Of a stretch of 64,000 nucleotides of DNA, positions 11,971-42,104 are shown piece after piece (within the stretch, counting starts at the first letter, position 1; each line of letters opens with the position of its first letter). Below the pieces are notes generated by a model. It did no database searches and was not told where the DNA came from. It worked only from the letters and a program-made list of their open reading frames with translations. The position numbers and the translations under genes are program-made. Origin of the DNA: Spiribacter vilamensis (lineage in GTDB: Bacteria; Pseudomonadota; Gammaproteobacteria; Nitrococcales; Nitrococcaceae); NCBI RefSeq assembly GCF_004217415.1, contig NZ_SHLI01000001.1:1302001-1366000 (forward strand). Direction: 5' to 3'.

Positions 11971-12831
11971 ATGATTGAGTTCATCCAGCTTCTCATGAAC
12001 GGCATCCTGCTCGGCAGCATTCTGGCACTGGGTGCCGTCGGGGCCACCATGATCTTCGGCGTCCTGCGCTTCGCGCATTTCGCCCATGGCGATTTCATGG
12101 CCATCGGGGCCTATTTCGCACTGACGGTGGTGACCGTATTCAACCTGCCGGTCCTCGCCGCCCTGCCGGTGGCCATGGTGCTCACCGCCGGGCTCGCCAT
12201 CGCCATCGACCAGGTCGTCTACCGCCGCATACGACGGGTCCAGCCGGTTATCCTGCTGATCGCCTCGTTCGCGACGGCACTGGTATTACGCTCGTTCATC
12301 CAGATGGTCTGGGGGAGCAGCAACCAGGTCTATCAGACCGGTATCCAGATGCCGATGAATTTCGGTCCGTTCACGTTCAAGCCCGATCACCTCCTGATCT
12401 TCGGGGCGGCAGCCGTACTGGTGGTCGCCGTCCACCTGTTCCTTTCCCGCACGAAAATGGGCAAGGCGATGCGGGCAATGAGCGACAACATGGACCTGGC
12501 ACTGGTGACCGGCATCCCGGCGAACCGCGTCATCATATGGACCTGGGCGATCGGCGGTTCGCTGGCGGCGGCGGCCGGGGTTTTCCTCGGCATGGACACG
12601 CGCCTGCACCCGGTCATGGGCTGGACACTGCTGCTGCCCATTTTCGCCGCCACCATCCTGGGCGGCATCGGACGCCCCTACGGCGCCATCCTCGGCGGGC
12701 TGGTCATCGGCTGCGCGATGGAGCTCTCCACCCTGGTTATCCCGGGGGCCTACAAACCGGCGGTGGCCTTCGCGATCATGGTGGCAACGCTCGTCTTCCG
12801 GCCGCAGGGCATCATCAAGGGGAATGCCTAA
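11971..12831 (+). CDS. livH: branched-chain amino acid-type ABC transporter permease LivH
   Basis: 286 residues and about eight transmembrane segments. Family landmarks include the N-terminal GILLGSILALGAVGATMIFGV, the FAHGDFMAIGAYFA segment and the C-terminal GGIGRPYGAILGGLVIG loop that contacts the ATPases. The stop TAA shares its last base with the ATG of livM. Confidence 0.9.
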   Translation: MIEFIQLLMNGILLGSILALGAVGATMIFGVLRFAHFAHGDFMAIGAYFALTVVTVFNLPVLAALPVAMVLTAGLAIAIDQVVYRRIRRVQPVILLIASFATALVLRSFIQMVWGSSNQVYQTGIQMPMNFGPFTFKPDHLLIFGAAAVLVVAVHLFLSRTKMGKAMRAMSDNMDLALVTGIPANRVIIWTWAIGGSLAAAAGVFLGMDTRLHPVMGWTLLLPIFAATILGGIGRPYGAILGGLVIGCAMELSTLVIPGAYKPAVAFAIMVATLVFRPQGIIKGNA

Positions 12832-13766
12832 TGGAAATCGCGGGACTGGCCTCTTACGGCGTCTTCTTCCTGAGCCTCGTGGGCATCTACGCCATCATGG
12901 CGCTGGGGCTCAACATGCAATGGGGCATGACCGGGCAGTTCAATATCGGCATTGCCGGGTTCTTCGCGGTAGGCGCCTACACCACCGCCATCCTGACGAG
13001 CAGCCCCGCCGACGGCCGGGTGGGCGGTTTCGATCTCCCCTTTTTCGTCGGTCTGATCGGCTCAGTCACCGCCTGCGTGCCCATTGCCTGGGTGGTGGGC
13101 CGGATTACCGCAAAGCTGCGGACCGACTACCTGGCCATCGCCACCATCGGTATCGCGGAGATCATCCGGTTATTCTTCGTCAACGAGAGCTGGCTGAGCA
13201 ACGGCACCCGCGGTATCGCCGGCATCGAGACACCATTCGGGATGGGGAACGAGGGCTATCTGCTGGTAATTGGCAGCTTCGTGGCCCTGACCTGGGTCCT
13301 CCTCGAGATCGCCCGGCGCTCACCCTGGGGACGTGTACTGCGGGCCATCCGCGATAACGAGGCGGCGACCGAGGCCGCGGGCAAGGATGTCGCCCGGTTC
13401 CGCCTGCAGGCCTTCGTCGTCGGCTGCTGCATCATGGCGCTGGGTGGCGGGTTGTACGCCCATTTCGTCAACTTCGTCAGCCCCGAGGCCTTTCGCCCGC
13501 TCTACGGCACATTCCTGGTGTGGGTCATGCTGATCGCCGGTGGCAGCGGCAACAATCTGGGTGCCATGCTTGGCGCCCTGGTGGTGTGGCTGATCTGGTC
13601 GTCGACGGAAATGCTCGCCGGCCTGGTGCCCACGGCGCTGATCGGCAGCGAGAGTGCCTTCCGCGTTTTCCTCATCGGGGTCCTGCTGCTAATCATCCTG
13701 GTGAGTCGGCCGCAGGGGTTGCTGCCGGAGAAGCAGCCGCCAATGCCGGGGGAGCGATCGAAGTAA
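12831..13766 (+). CDS. livM: branched-chain amino acid-type ABC transporter permease LivM
   Basis: 311 residues from the ATG at 12831. It has multiple transmembrane helices, with LGLNMQWGMTGQFNIGIAGFFAVGAYT near the start and the EAA-like cytoplasmic loop RRSPWGRVLRAIRDNEAATEAAGKD. It closes the livGFHM operon. No substrate-binding protein follows on this strand; the livK-type gene lies 1 kb further on, facing the operon. Confidence 0.9.
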   Translation: MEIAGLASYGVFFLSLVGIYAIMALGLNMQWGMTGQFNIGIAGFFAVGAYTTAILTSSPADGRVGGFDLPFFVGLIGSVTACVPIAWVVGRITAKLRTDYLAIATIGIAEIIRLFFVNESWLSNGTRGIAGIETPFGMGNEGYLLVIGSFVALTWVLLEIARRSPWGRVLRAIRDNEAATEAAGKDVARFRLQAFVVGCCIMALGGGLYAHFVNFVSPEAFRPLYGTFLVWVMLIAGGSGNNLGAMLGALVVWLIWSSTEMLAGLVPTALIGSESAFRVFLIGVLLLIILVSRPQGLLPEKQPPMPGERSK

Positions 13767-13780
13767 GGTTTGCGTAGGAA

Positions 13781-13855
13781 GGGATGTGTCGATGCTCAGG
13801 CGCTCATGAGATCGTCTTCGCCGATCAAAATCGCGCCTGAGCACCGACACATCCC
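13781..13855. repeat. core-and-variable-arm hairpin, copy A1
   Basis: Two 22-base arms (13781-13802 and 13834-13855) pair with one mismatch. They enclose a 31-base core at 13803-13833 that starts with CTCATGAGATCG and ends with GATCAAAATCG. The same core occurs with completely different arms at 14449-14479. It lies just after livM, facing the SHOCT-domain gene. No T-run adjoins the stem, so it is not a standard intrinsic terminator, although it may stall polymerase. Confidence 0.85.
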
Positions 13856-14028
13856 TGCAACGCCTTACATTGATCCGGTGGTGAGTCGGGGAGAGGAGCC
13901 TGGATGCGGGTGTCATCGATCGAGCGGAAGATGGCCGAATCGAGTTTCGATATGACGCCGTACACGTCGACTTCGTGCTCGAGGCCGCAGGCTGACCCAC
14001 TGGCCTCCTCTCCACCTTGAAGGGCAGG

Positions 14029-14370
14029 CTACTCCTCTAGGGCCTGCTTGCGCTTGCGAAACTCCTCTTCGTCGATTTCACCGCGCGCGAAGCGCTCCTC
14101 GAGAATGGCTCTGGCCGAGGAGCCGCCGCGCCGCGGCGAGCCACCCATGTTGCAGCCGGCACCACCAAACAAGCGTACCGCAAGGAAAACCACGCCCACG
14201 ACGATACCGAGAAACAGCAGCATCATAATCGGGCCCATGAACCAGGGCATACCGCCCATCATCCCGTGACTCCCCCAGGATCCACTCGGGCCCGATTGCG
14301 CAAACGCCGTCGACGTGGTGACGAGTCCAGCCATCGCTATCGACAGGGCTGCGATGGATTTAATCTTCAT
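14029..14370 (-). CDS. small secreted/membrane protein with SHOCT domain
   Basis: 113 residues. A signal peptide (MKIKSIAALSIAMAGLVTTSTAFAQ) is followed by a Gly/Met-rich segment, one transmembrane helix (MMLLFLGIVVGVVFLAVRLF) and a C-terminal SHOCT helix pair (ILEERFARGEIDEEEFRKRKQAL). Such proteins are common, small and of unknown function. It is flanked on both sides by the A-type hairpins and lies between livM and livK, all of which separate the transporter's parts. Confidence 0.8.
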   Translation of the reverse strand: MKIKSIAALSIAMAGLVTTSTAFAQSGPSGSWGSHGMMGGMPWFMGPIMMLLFLGIVVGVVFLAVRLFGGAGCNMGGSPRRGGSSARAILEERFARGEIDEEEFRKRKQALEE

Positions 14371-14426
14371 ACGTGATTTCCTCCGGTTGATTCGGGATTG
14401 TGCGTTTAATCAATGCCATGACAGGA

Positions 14427-14501
14427 GGTTCTGGAGGGTCACCAAAGGCTCATGAGATCGTCTTCGCCGATCAAAATCGCCTTTGGTGCCCCTCCAGACC
14501 C
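14427..14501. repeat. core-and-variable-arm hairpin, copy A2
   Basis: Arms of 22 bases (14427-14448 and 14480-14501) pair with two mismatches. The 31-base core at 14449-14479 is identical to that of copy A1 and in the same orientation, yet the arm sequences are unrelated to those of A1. Confidence 0.85.
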
Positions 14502-14596
14502 TTGCAGTTTGCATAAGGAACGCCGCCGTTCCGCGGAGCGCCTCTGACCTACAGAATCGACCCTGCACGACCGCCAGGCAACCACGGATCAACAAC

Positions 14597-14717
14597 GCAA
14601 GGATCTGGTGGGTAATCGGAGGCGATTTTGATCGACGAAGGCGATCGTATGAGCCTCCGGTTGCCCACCAGATCCTTGCCCCCATCTCATGAGCCTCCGG
14701 TTACCCACCAGATCCTT
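14597..14717. repeat. core-and-variable-arm hairpin, copy A3 (inverted) plus half copy
   Basis: Arms of 26 bases (14597-14622 and 14654-14679) pair with two mismatches. The core at 14623-14653 is the reverse complement of the A1/A2 core with four differences. A half copy follows at 14684-14717: the core end ATCTCATGAG, in its consensus form, plus another copy of the right arm. A third, still different arm sequence is used. Confidence 0.85.
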
Positions 14718-14728
14718 CCACCTTGCAC

Positions 14729-14760
14729 AAAAAAAAGCGCCCCAGTCCCCTAGAGCGCTT
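14729..14760 (-). terminator. intrinsic terminator of livK
   Basis: Read on the minus strand, AAGCGC (14760-14755) pairs with GCGCTT, followed directly by a run of T (the A-run at 14729-14736). It lies 47 bases beyond the livK stop. Confidence 0.75.
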
Positions 14761-14806
14761 CTCTTAGCACCAGCCTAAAGGCCGGGGTATATCCAGCAGT
14801 CGCTAA

Positions 14807-16018
14807 CTACATCGTCGGCTCGAACACCCGAACCGTCACGTACTCGCCGTCCTGGATCTCCCAGTGGGCGAAGGTACCGGCAACGTCGCCGTTTTCGTCG
14901 TAGTTCACACTACCCGAGGCGCCTTCATAGTTGACCGCCTCACCGGCGTTGAGCAGGTCCACGGCCTCGGCGAAATCACCGGGACCAACCACTTCACCGT
15001 CGGGATCGTTCACCGCCCGCAGGTGGTCACGGATGGCGACCGGGTCGGTGCTGTCCGCGGCGACGGCCGCCAGGGCGATGGTGTAGACCGCGTCATAGGC
15101 CGTGTCGATGTAGGGCACGGGCGGCACTTCGCCGTAGGTTGCCTCGTAGGCCTCCTTGAAATGCTGGGCCGCATTCGTGTCGTCACGGGCCTGCGGCACG
15201 GTGCCAGCACTGCCGTTGAGATACTGCGCGCCGAGGTTCTCGACGATCTGCGGCGACTTCATGCCATCGGTAAACAGGAACTCGGTGAAGTGTCCGCCCT
15301 CCAGCGCCTGGCGCAGGATGGTCTGGCCGTTCTCGGGGTACCCGATCAGCAGCAGCGGCGACTCGTCGTCGGAGACCTGGTTGAGCTCACCGCGATACGA
15401 GGAGAGTCCCGGCTCGTAGCCCGAACGGCCCACCACTTCGCCACCGGCCGCCTCGAACGACTCGGTAAAGGCATCGGCAAGGCCTTCGCCGTAATCGTTG
15501 TTGATATACAGGATGCCGACGCTCTCCATGCCCTTGTCCGCCGCCACTTCGGCGAGCGCGGTCCCCTGGAACGCATCCGAGGGCGTCGTGCGGAAGAGGA
15601 AGTCGTTATCGTCGAGATCGGTCATCACCGGCGAGGTGGAGGCGCCGGAGATCTGCGGGATGCCCTCGCTTGCGGAAACGCTGCTCGCCACCGGGATGGT
15701 CACACCACTGGAGAGCGCGCCGACGATCGCCGAGACACCCTGCACCGAGACCAGTCGCTGCGCGGCGTCGACACCGGACTGCGGCTCGGTCTGCGTATCG
15801 GCGATTTCGATCGCCATGGACTCGCCCAGCACACCACCGGCCTCGTTGATCTCGCTCGCCGCGAGGTTGATGCCGTTACGGGAACTCTCGCCGTAGGCCT
15901 GCAGATCACCGGTGAGCGGGAGTAGCGCACCCACTTTCAGTTCGGCCTGCGCGCCACCGGCGGCGACCGCGAGGGAGAGGGCGCCGAGCGCTCCTGCTAG
16001 CTTGCCATTGATTCTCAT
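14807..16018 (-). CDS. livK: branched-chain amino acid-type ABC transporter substrate-binding protein
   Basis: 403 residues from the ATG at 16018. It has a signal peptide (LAGALGALSLAVAAGGAQA) and then a type I periplasmic binding protein fold starting at KVGALLPLTGDLQAYGESSRNG. Typical LivJ/K landmarks are VGALSSGVTIPVA and GILYINNDYGEGLADAF. It captures the ligand for LivHMGF. It is encoded on the opposite strand, 1 kb downstream of livM and pointing at it, so it has its own promoter and terminator rather than belonging to the livGFHM transcript. Confidence 0.88.
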   Translation of the reverse strand: MRINGKLAGALGALSLAVAAGGAQAELKVGALLPLTGDLQAYGESSRNGINLAASEINEAGGVLGESMAIEIADTQTEPQSGVDAAQRLVSVQGVSAIVGALSSGVTIPVASSVSASEGIPQISGASTSPVMTDLDDNDFLFRTTPSDAFQGTALAEVAADKGMESVGILYINNDYGEGLADAFTESFEAAGGEVVGRSGYEPGLSSYRGELNQVSDDESPLLLIGYPENGQTILRQALEGGHFTEFLFTDGMKSPQIVENLGAQYLNGSAGTVPQARDDTNAAQHFKEAYEATYGEVPPVPYIDTAYDAVYTIALAAVAADSTDPVAIRDHLRAVNDPDGEVVGPGDFAEAVDLLNAGEAVNYEGASGSVNYDENGDVAGTFAHWEIQDGEYVTVRVFEPTM

Positions 16019-16101
16019 GTCCAACACTCCGCTGGATGGTTGCAAATAGGTTCACACCCGAGAATACGCAGCCAGACGTCCGGAGGCAAAGGCCGGCGGG
16101 A

Positions 16102-41108: not shown

Positions 41109-42104
41109 GTGGCGGCGCCGATGCAGGGGTTCAGGGAAATCGGTCTGTCGGTGCTGGCCCATGCCGTTCTGCTCGGGGCCTTCGCCGTCAGCTTCCGGAT
41201 GACCGGGATGTCCGATCAGGCCAGCCCCGGCACCGAACAGGCCGTGCAGGCGGTGGCCGTCAGCGAGGCCGAGGTCGAGGAGACCATCGAGGCGCTCGAG
41301 GCGCAGGAAGCGGAAGAACGGCGTCAGGAGGAAGAGGCCCTCGAAGCACTCGAGGCCGAGCGCCAGCGTGAGGCCGAACGACTGGCGGCGGAACGCGAGG
41401 CGATCGAGGCCGCCAAGGAAGAACGGCGCCAGGCGGAGGCCGAAGCCGAGCGCCAGCGCGAAGCGGCCGAGAGGGCGCGCCGCGAAGCGGAGGCCGAAGC
41501 TGAGGCCGAGGCGGAAGCGCAGCAGAAACGGGAGGCTGAAGAGCAGGCACGCCGGGAGGCTGAGGCTGAGCGCCAACGGCAGGCCGAGGAGCAGGCCCAG
41601 CGTGAAGCCGAGGCTGAGCGCCAACGGCAGGCCGAGGAACAGGCACAGCGCGAGGCAGAGGCTGAGGCACAGGCCCGGCGGGAGGCCGAGGAACAGGCCC
41701 GCCGCGAGGCGGAGGCCGAGCGCCAGCGGCAGGCCGAGGAACAGGCTCAGCGCGAGGCCGAAGCGGAGGCACAGGCCCGCCGCGAGGCGGAGGAACGGCG
41801 ACAGGCGGAGGCCCAGCGCCAGGCGCGCGGGACCTTTGATGCCGCCATTCGCCAGAAAGTCGAAGGGGTCTGGCGGCGCCCCGCCGGCATCCCCGATGGC
41901 CTGAGCGCACTGGTCGCCGTCCGCCTCGGTCCGGGCGGTATTGTCCTGTCCGTCGACGTCGCCCGATCGAGTGGTAACGCCGCCTTCGATCGCTCCGCCG
42001 TGACCGCGGTGCGGCGCGCCGATCCACTCCCCATGCCCGACGACCCGGCGCTCGCCCAACCCTATCGCGAGGGCGTGGAAATGGTATTCGCACCGGACGC
42101 CTGA
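41109..42104 (+). CDS. tolA: cell envelope integrity protein TolA
   Basis: 331 residues from GTG at 41109 (an ATG at 41121 is possible). One N-terminal membrane helix (IGLSVLAHAVLLGAFAVSF). A very long Glu/Ala/Arg/Gln helical domain II (residues about 55-238) is made of near-identical heptad blocks such as AERQRQAEEQAQREA. The C-terminal domain III (FDAAIRQKVEGVWRRP) binds TolB/Pal partners. DNA under the repeats is itself repetitive, so copy number may vary between strains. Confidence 0.93.
   Translation: MAAPMQGFREIGLSVLAHAVLLGAFAVSFRMTGMSDQASPGTEQAVQAVAVSEAEVEETIEALEAQEAEERRQEEEALEALEAERQREAERLAAEREAIEAAKEERRQAEAEAERQREAAERARREAEAEAEAEAEAQQKREAEEQARREAEAERQRQAEEQAQREAEAERQRQAEEQAQREAEAEAQARREAEEQARREAEAERQRQAEEQAQREAEAEAQARREAEERRQAEAQRQARGTFDAAIRQKVEGVWRRPAGIPDGLSALVAVRLGPGGIVLSVDVARSSGNAAFDRSAVTAVRRADPLPMPDDPALAQPYREGVEMVFAPDA

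Follow-up and report, generated by a model that had tools for sequence, protein, structure and literature searches.

The three long hairpins that lie between a livM-like and a livK-like gene probably belong to a family of palindromic repeats that is confined to the genus, occupies intergenic DNA and has a REP/BIME-like layout. What is conserved would be a folded single strand with a fixed polarity, in the simplest case an RNA transcribed past the ends of genes. The features of this site in the window (the whole 64,000 nt stretch of DNA that was analyzed) are as follows.

12537..13766, plus strand: branched-chain amino acid permease gene, livM-like (PF02653, 137.9 bits), the upstream convergent gene
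13776..13859, minus strand: hairpin copy c1, arms 13780-13802 and 13834-13857, core 13803-13833 (R2 match 69.4 bits; minus-strand fold -59 kcal/mol, z -8.3)
14029..14370, minus strand: small gene of 113 aa with a SHOCT domain (PF09851, 32.2 bits, cut-off 27), between c1 and c2/c3
14422..14505, minus strand: hairpin copy c2, core 14449-14479, the same as that of c1 (R2 match 66.5 bits)
14597..14680, plus strand: hairpin copy c3, core 14623-14653, inverted with respect to c2 (R2 match 71.5 bits; plus-strand fold with 27 contiguous pairs, -65.9 kcal/mol, z -12.0)
14684..14717, plus strand: half copy c4, directly after c3, with the core end (CTCATGAG) and right arm of c3 (87% identity to 14644-14682; 96% complementary to the c3 left arm)
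14729..14762, minus strand: ordinary terminator-like hairpin with U-tract belonging to the livK-like gene (minus strand AAGCGCTCTAGGGGACTGGGGCGCTTTTTTTT), not of the repeat family
14807..16045, minus strand: periplasmic binding protein gene, livK-like (PF13458, 175 bits), the downstream convergent gene

Each of c1, c2 and c3 folds as a single long hairpin (RNA z-scores -7.6 to -12.0, equalled by no shuffle), and c1 starts 10 bp past the stop codon of the livM-like gene (at 13766). The core positions given by the sequence-only reading, 13803-13833 (+), 14449-14479 (+) and 14623-14653 (-), were confirmed, together with the identity of the first two cores and the four changes in the inverted third. 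Including their flanks the c1 and c2 cores share 33 identical bases, and the chance expectation for the core pattern is 0.00 occurrences. Aligned with c2, c1 matches at 29/29 core positions and at ~43% of the arms. The c1 arms have 12-13 of 28 bases in common with the other copies, and are thus nearly unrelated to them (shuffle P 0.03-0.06). c2 and c3 are 79% identical over 80 ungapped nt, with 20/28 bases alike in the 5′ arm and 18/26 in the 3′ arm. The alignment of all three copies is free of gaps, and their outer ends are partly common. The arms had been described as completely different from copy to copy, which is not the case for c2 and c3 and is approached by c1 alone; the broader observation of a conserved core inside self-complementary, variable arms holds across the genus. 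The small GATCG/CGATC stem noticed within the core is real. The palindrome CTCATGAG is incidental, its halves being located in separate structural parts.

A covariance model constructed from the three window copies detected related hairpins elsewhere in the genus, and a second model (12 copies) gave matches in 12 of the 14 genus genomes (E up to 0.5). Such models were needed because core searches, both exact and with 3 mismatches, returned nothing beyond the three window copies and missed the rest of the family. The second model had no match in the nine other genomes of the taxonomic family, nor in 40 genomes of the order outside the genus, where stricter filters were applied. In sampled genomes of the class the exact pattern was absent outside the window's genome, and viral contigs gave no match. 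Five GTDB pattern matches were rejected as members, having folds without the hairpin. In Rfam nothing scored above the gathering threshold; sub-threshold matches were mainly to miRNA hairpins, the best with 47.1 bits where 200 are needed. The Spiribacter genome paper does not mention such a repeat. By model, the window's genome (G000) has ten complete copies in sense orientation: the three in the window, two at 188.2-188.6 kb, two at 1.4917-1.4932 Mb, one at 1.5086 Mb and two at 1.8512-1.8517 Mb. Copy number is low, with 1-14 matches per genome as counted from the model searches in one genome per species. Among the family copies found, half copies were the only instances of a core without paired arms. 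Arms are partly conserved genome-wide, with a few conserved arm types within G010, G017, G019 and G020; conservation of this kind was the outcome that the sequence-only reading had named as refuting it.

The family elements are 83-115 nt in length. Their common part is an internal loop of approximately 5′ GCGAUYUY ... NNRYGAGC 3′, placed between a stem of ~27 bp and a second stem of variable length; the second stem and its loop differ between species. In the 49 parsed hairpins there is a conserved 6x6 internal loop made of tandem G.A/A.G, then Y.Y and then a U-A/C-G pair. At its base G.A is found in 49/49 and A.G in 48/49. The fourth position pairs as C-G in 35 hairpins and as U-A in 13, with one exception. 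The long stem has 24-28 pairs in 32/49 copies, with a mode of 27, and the arms have recurrent motifs, an outer TGNCG and an inner CCGGGC.

The stem sequence changes while the pairing is kept. In stem-1 of c1, c2 and c3, 14/24 pairs carry changes on both sides, compared with ~5 in shuffles, and 97.7% of stem cells are paired in these window copies. Extended to 12 copies, there are double changes in 24/27 pairs, and 92.6% of cells are paired compared with 67.7% when shuffled and 35-44% when slid; no shuffle reaches the values for stem-1. The family copies are mutually non-independent. Close copies differ mostly by steps between G.U and Watson-Crick pairs (106) and by double compensatory changes (83). 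Some of the full compensations in close copies are transversions, which could pass via a tolerated A.G mismatch.

The residual mismatches are strongly one-sided. When the loop motif sets the reading direction, the 49 hairpins contain 66 G.U against 1 A.C, and 40 A.G against 4 C.U. This totals 106 G.U or A.G mismatches and 5 that are A.C or C.U, and reading the opposite strand would reverse the counts. In the window, the strand with the GCGATTTT motif is the minus strand for c1 and c2 and the plus strand for c3, and it is on this strand that most of the leftover mismatches become G.U. The polarity follows the element and not the genome strand, as the window contains copies of either orientation. 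The one-sidedness therefore indicates that it is a folded strand with this polarity that is kept, and RNA is the simplest candidate. These features are most simply explained by selection acting on the folded strand, which is most likely RNA. The alternative is a single-stranded DNA of fixed polarity; hairpin DNA used on one strand, as by IS200-type enzymes, would also yield such a polarity.

The gaps that hold the family copies separate convergent or tandem genes, and a copy often lies 3-20 bp past a stop codon; gene arrangement was taken from a simple ORF picker. None lies in a gap between divergent genes, and where both neighbours are visible every copy is 3′ of at least one gene; as a baseline, 5/20 of the window's gaps of at least 60 bp are divergent. 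The hairpins have no U-tract, with a T count in the 9 nt following the sense hairpin of 0 in 26/49 and 1 in 13/49. Inverted pairs are common among the copies; twelve of them have exactly 29 bp between the model ends, and this spacer is conserved. Other pairs are separated by 38, 91, 161 bp and more.

Compensatory drift accounts for most of the difference between arms. In 459/595 long-core pairs the arms are less similar than the cores. Core evolution is slower than that of the stem, and within one genome the cores tend to resemble each other. With a stem that changes faster than the apical part, plain compensation suffices only where strong constraint, or homogenization within genomes, acts on the core. 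Loop/core types are species-specific even at shared sites, for example L102 (G000) vs L094 (G010), for which concerted evolution is needed, or else recurrent insertion or a co-evolving partner. A further process has been considered, in which one arm templates the other during replication or repair by intramolecular template switching, so that the hairpin, its stem rewritten from time to time, would absorb bordering host sequence and stay perfectly paired, with the axial core preserved and homogenized in each genome. Two observations leave room for such copying. In G018 (L108:1300-1450) an arm takes in the final 8 bases of the livM-like gene (AGCGGTGA, K-R-stop as in relatives), with the exact complement of these 8 bases on the far side of the hairpin and a second half copy after it. 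The c3 arm holds AGGATCTGGTGG, which agrees over 12 bases with the 29-bp spacer found in other pairs, a match reached in 2/4000 shuffles. The disagreement between core and arm similarities, and the frequent half copies, also fit arm copying. Yet copying would erase the stepwise G.U/A.G intermediates of one polarity that are seen in close copies, and should vary the length of a stem that is held near 27 pairs. Foreign arm sequence is found in just one or two copies. The covariation, the mismatch polarity and the single-pair steps are what compensatory evolution gives. The remaking of arms by copying, which the sequence-only reading had put forward, thus survives as an unlikely explanation. That reading had also suggested an element that enters palindromes already present, at their axis. 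The common core and differing arms of c1 and c2 would fit this, but the arms are homologous and alignable in most copies and across species, the stem is near-constant in length and the register of core and stem is fixed. Moreover, livM-livK sites in relatives that do not have the family hairpins provide no ready-made palindrome copy; several have short U-tract terminators, and the remainder other sequence. We consider insertion at a palindrome axis scarcely credible.

Two further explanations involve mobility as single-stranded DNA. REP, BIME and REPIN elements are intergenic palindromes, often in inverted pairs at fixed distance, species-specific, located 3′ of genes in convergent or tandem gaps and plausibly transcribed (PMC3733652, PMC3116915). 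The family hairpins are similarly intergenic and form inverted doublets with a preferred spacing. The inverted pair with its 29-bp spacer might therefore be a REPIN-like unit, mobilized at the DNA level, in single-stranded form, by a trans-acting tyrosine transposase, with the hairpins as recognition structures. The invariant spacing and conserved spacer, the placement in convergent and tandem gaps like that of REPs (PMC3733652), and a strand polarity that suits single-strand enzymes are consistent with this. Against it, no Y1 transposase match (PF01797) was found in the complete genome G000 or in G010, G019 or G020, which have several to many copies. There are single PF01797 matches in G014, G015 and G017, and the sole strong one is in G015, where no copy was found. 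The copy number is low, and the tag expected beside the stems is absent; GTAG is found within 12 nt of the 5′ foot in 0/49 hairpins, with CTAC at the 3′ foot in 2 and CGTC at the 5′ foot in 2. Transposition of this kind is improbable in our estimation. Given the lack of the tag, and of a RAYT match in G000, we have not filed the family as REP/BIME/REPIN. The hairpins might alternatively be attC-like recombination sites of gene cassettes, i.e. single-strand hairpins flanking small toxin-antitoxin genes. They share with attC a folded single strand with strand polarity, a conserved fold with variable sequence, and nearby genes of this type. In G000 genes for HicB-like and Unstab_antitox antitoxins (L102:1430-2122) and an HTH gene (L104:1414-1695) lie between hairpins, as does a Phd-like and PIN-domain pair in G017 (L105:1662-2392). 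Yet the conserved part of the family is internal, unlike that of integron attC, and terminal R boxes (RYYYAAC / GTTRRRY) were not noticed on reading through the listed hairpin feet. Most pairs enclose only the 29-bp spacer, and the enclosed genes may merely mark spots that tolerate insertion. We therefore regard a role as cassette recombination sites as very unlikely. The SHOCT gene between c1 and c2/c3, like the other enclosed genes, may be cargo of the hairpins or may lie there by chance.

Direct tests with the U-tract and tag counts led us to reject canonical terminators and tagged REPs. Like intrinsic terminators, these are strong hairpins near stop codons that are usable from both sides between convergent genes, but they have no U-tract, contain a conserved internal loop and behave as a repeat family. 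Compared with REPs of 20-40 bp, they are long, with ~27 bp stems and few copies, and it is the internal loop rather than the stem that is kept. In families of the RU/ERIC type the sequence is kept along the whole palindrome. The stem sequence of the present family is free, unlike that of RU-1 to RU-3, and only its pairing is kept. Both are small intergenic repeats, the enterobacterial RU-1 to RU-3 (ERIC/IRU) measuring 103-168 bp and having MITE-like features (PMC2759123, PMC2229807). The best reading of the comparisons is that the hairpins would form a new REP/BIME-like family of structured palindromes, with stems that drift by compensation around a constrained core.

For the preferred reading, that of a family maintained as a folded strand, the core would be the recognized part, either by protein binding or as a fold, and the stem would require only pairing and a set length. 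The element may act in the 3′ region of transcripts, in protection of the 3′ end, in processing or in termination that requires no U-tract. Because the pair is inverted, it could function in either orientation of insertion. The family would formerly have spread as a non-autonomous repeat. The genomes are small (~2 Mb), so that repeats retained at gene ends suggest function. Most bacterial palindromic repeats are recognized by a conserved stem sequence, whereas here the stem is free, and pairing, length and a small non-canonical loop are kept. The family offers a clean test case for repeats maintained as RNA vs spread as single-stranded DNA, and also for the uniformity of a core within a genome despite diverging arms.

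The livM-livK site has family hairpins in G000, G018, G021 and G017. In G012 and G021 there is a 4-kb insert at this site, which was rejected as a hairpin-bounded element; by reading, it resembles an operon for a sulfate-type transporter. Between the livM-like and livK-like genes of G011 (L146, G011:C6:36700-37000) there is another long GC-rich inverted repeat that gives no model match. A second hairpin family, with core CGTN(1-3)CCTAARGTCGGCG, has three copies, two in G010 and one in G020, each with self-complementary arms that differ per copy. Its sites, L143 (G010:C1:1242350-1242800) and L144 (G020:C10:39300-39700), are the same livM-livK site, and its exact pattern occurs nowhere else in the genus.

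Elsewhere, a 2-kb interior between two hairpin pairs (G009, G012, G021) was rejected as a transposon, since it contains an ordinary-looking gene of 587 aa that, by reading, appears to be PHA synthase-like. In three species (L089, L090, L091) this gene has complete inverted hairpin pairs on both sides, and G000 does not have the gene at the same junction (L104). In the window itself, positions 41312-41816 contain a repeat array with a 24-bp register, within an apparent coding region.
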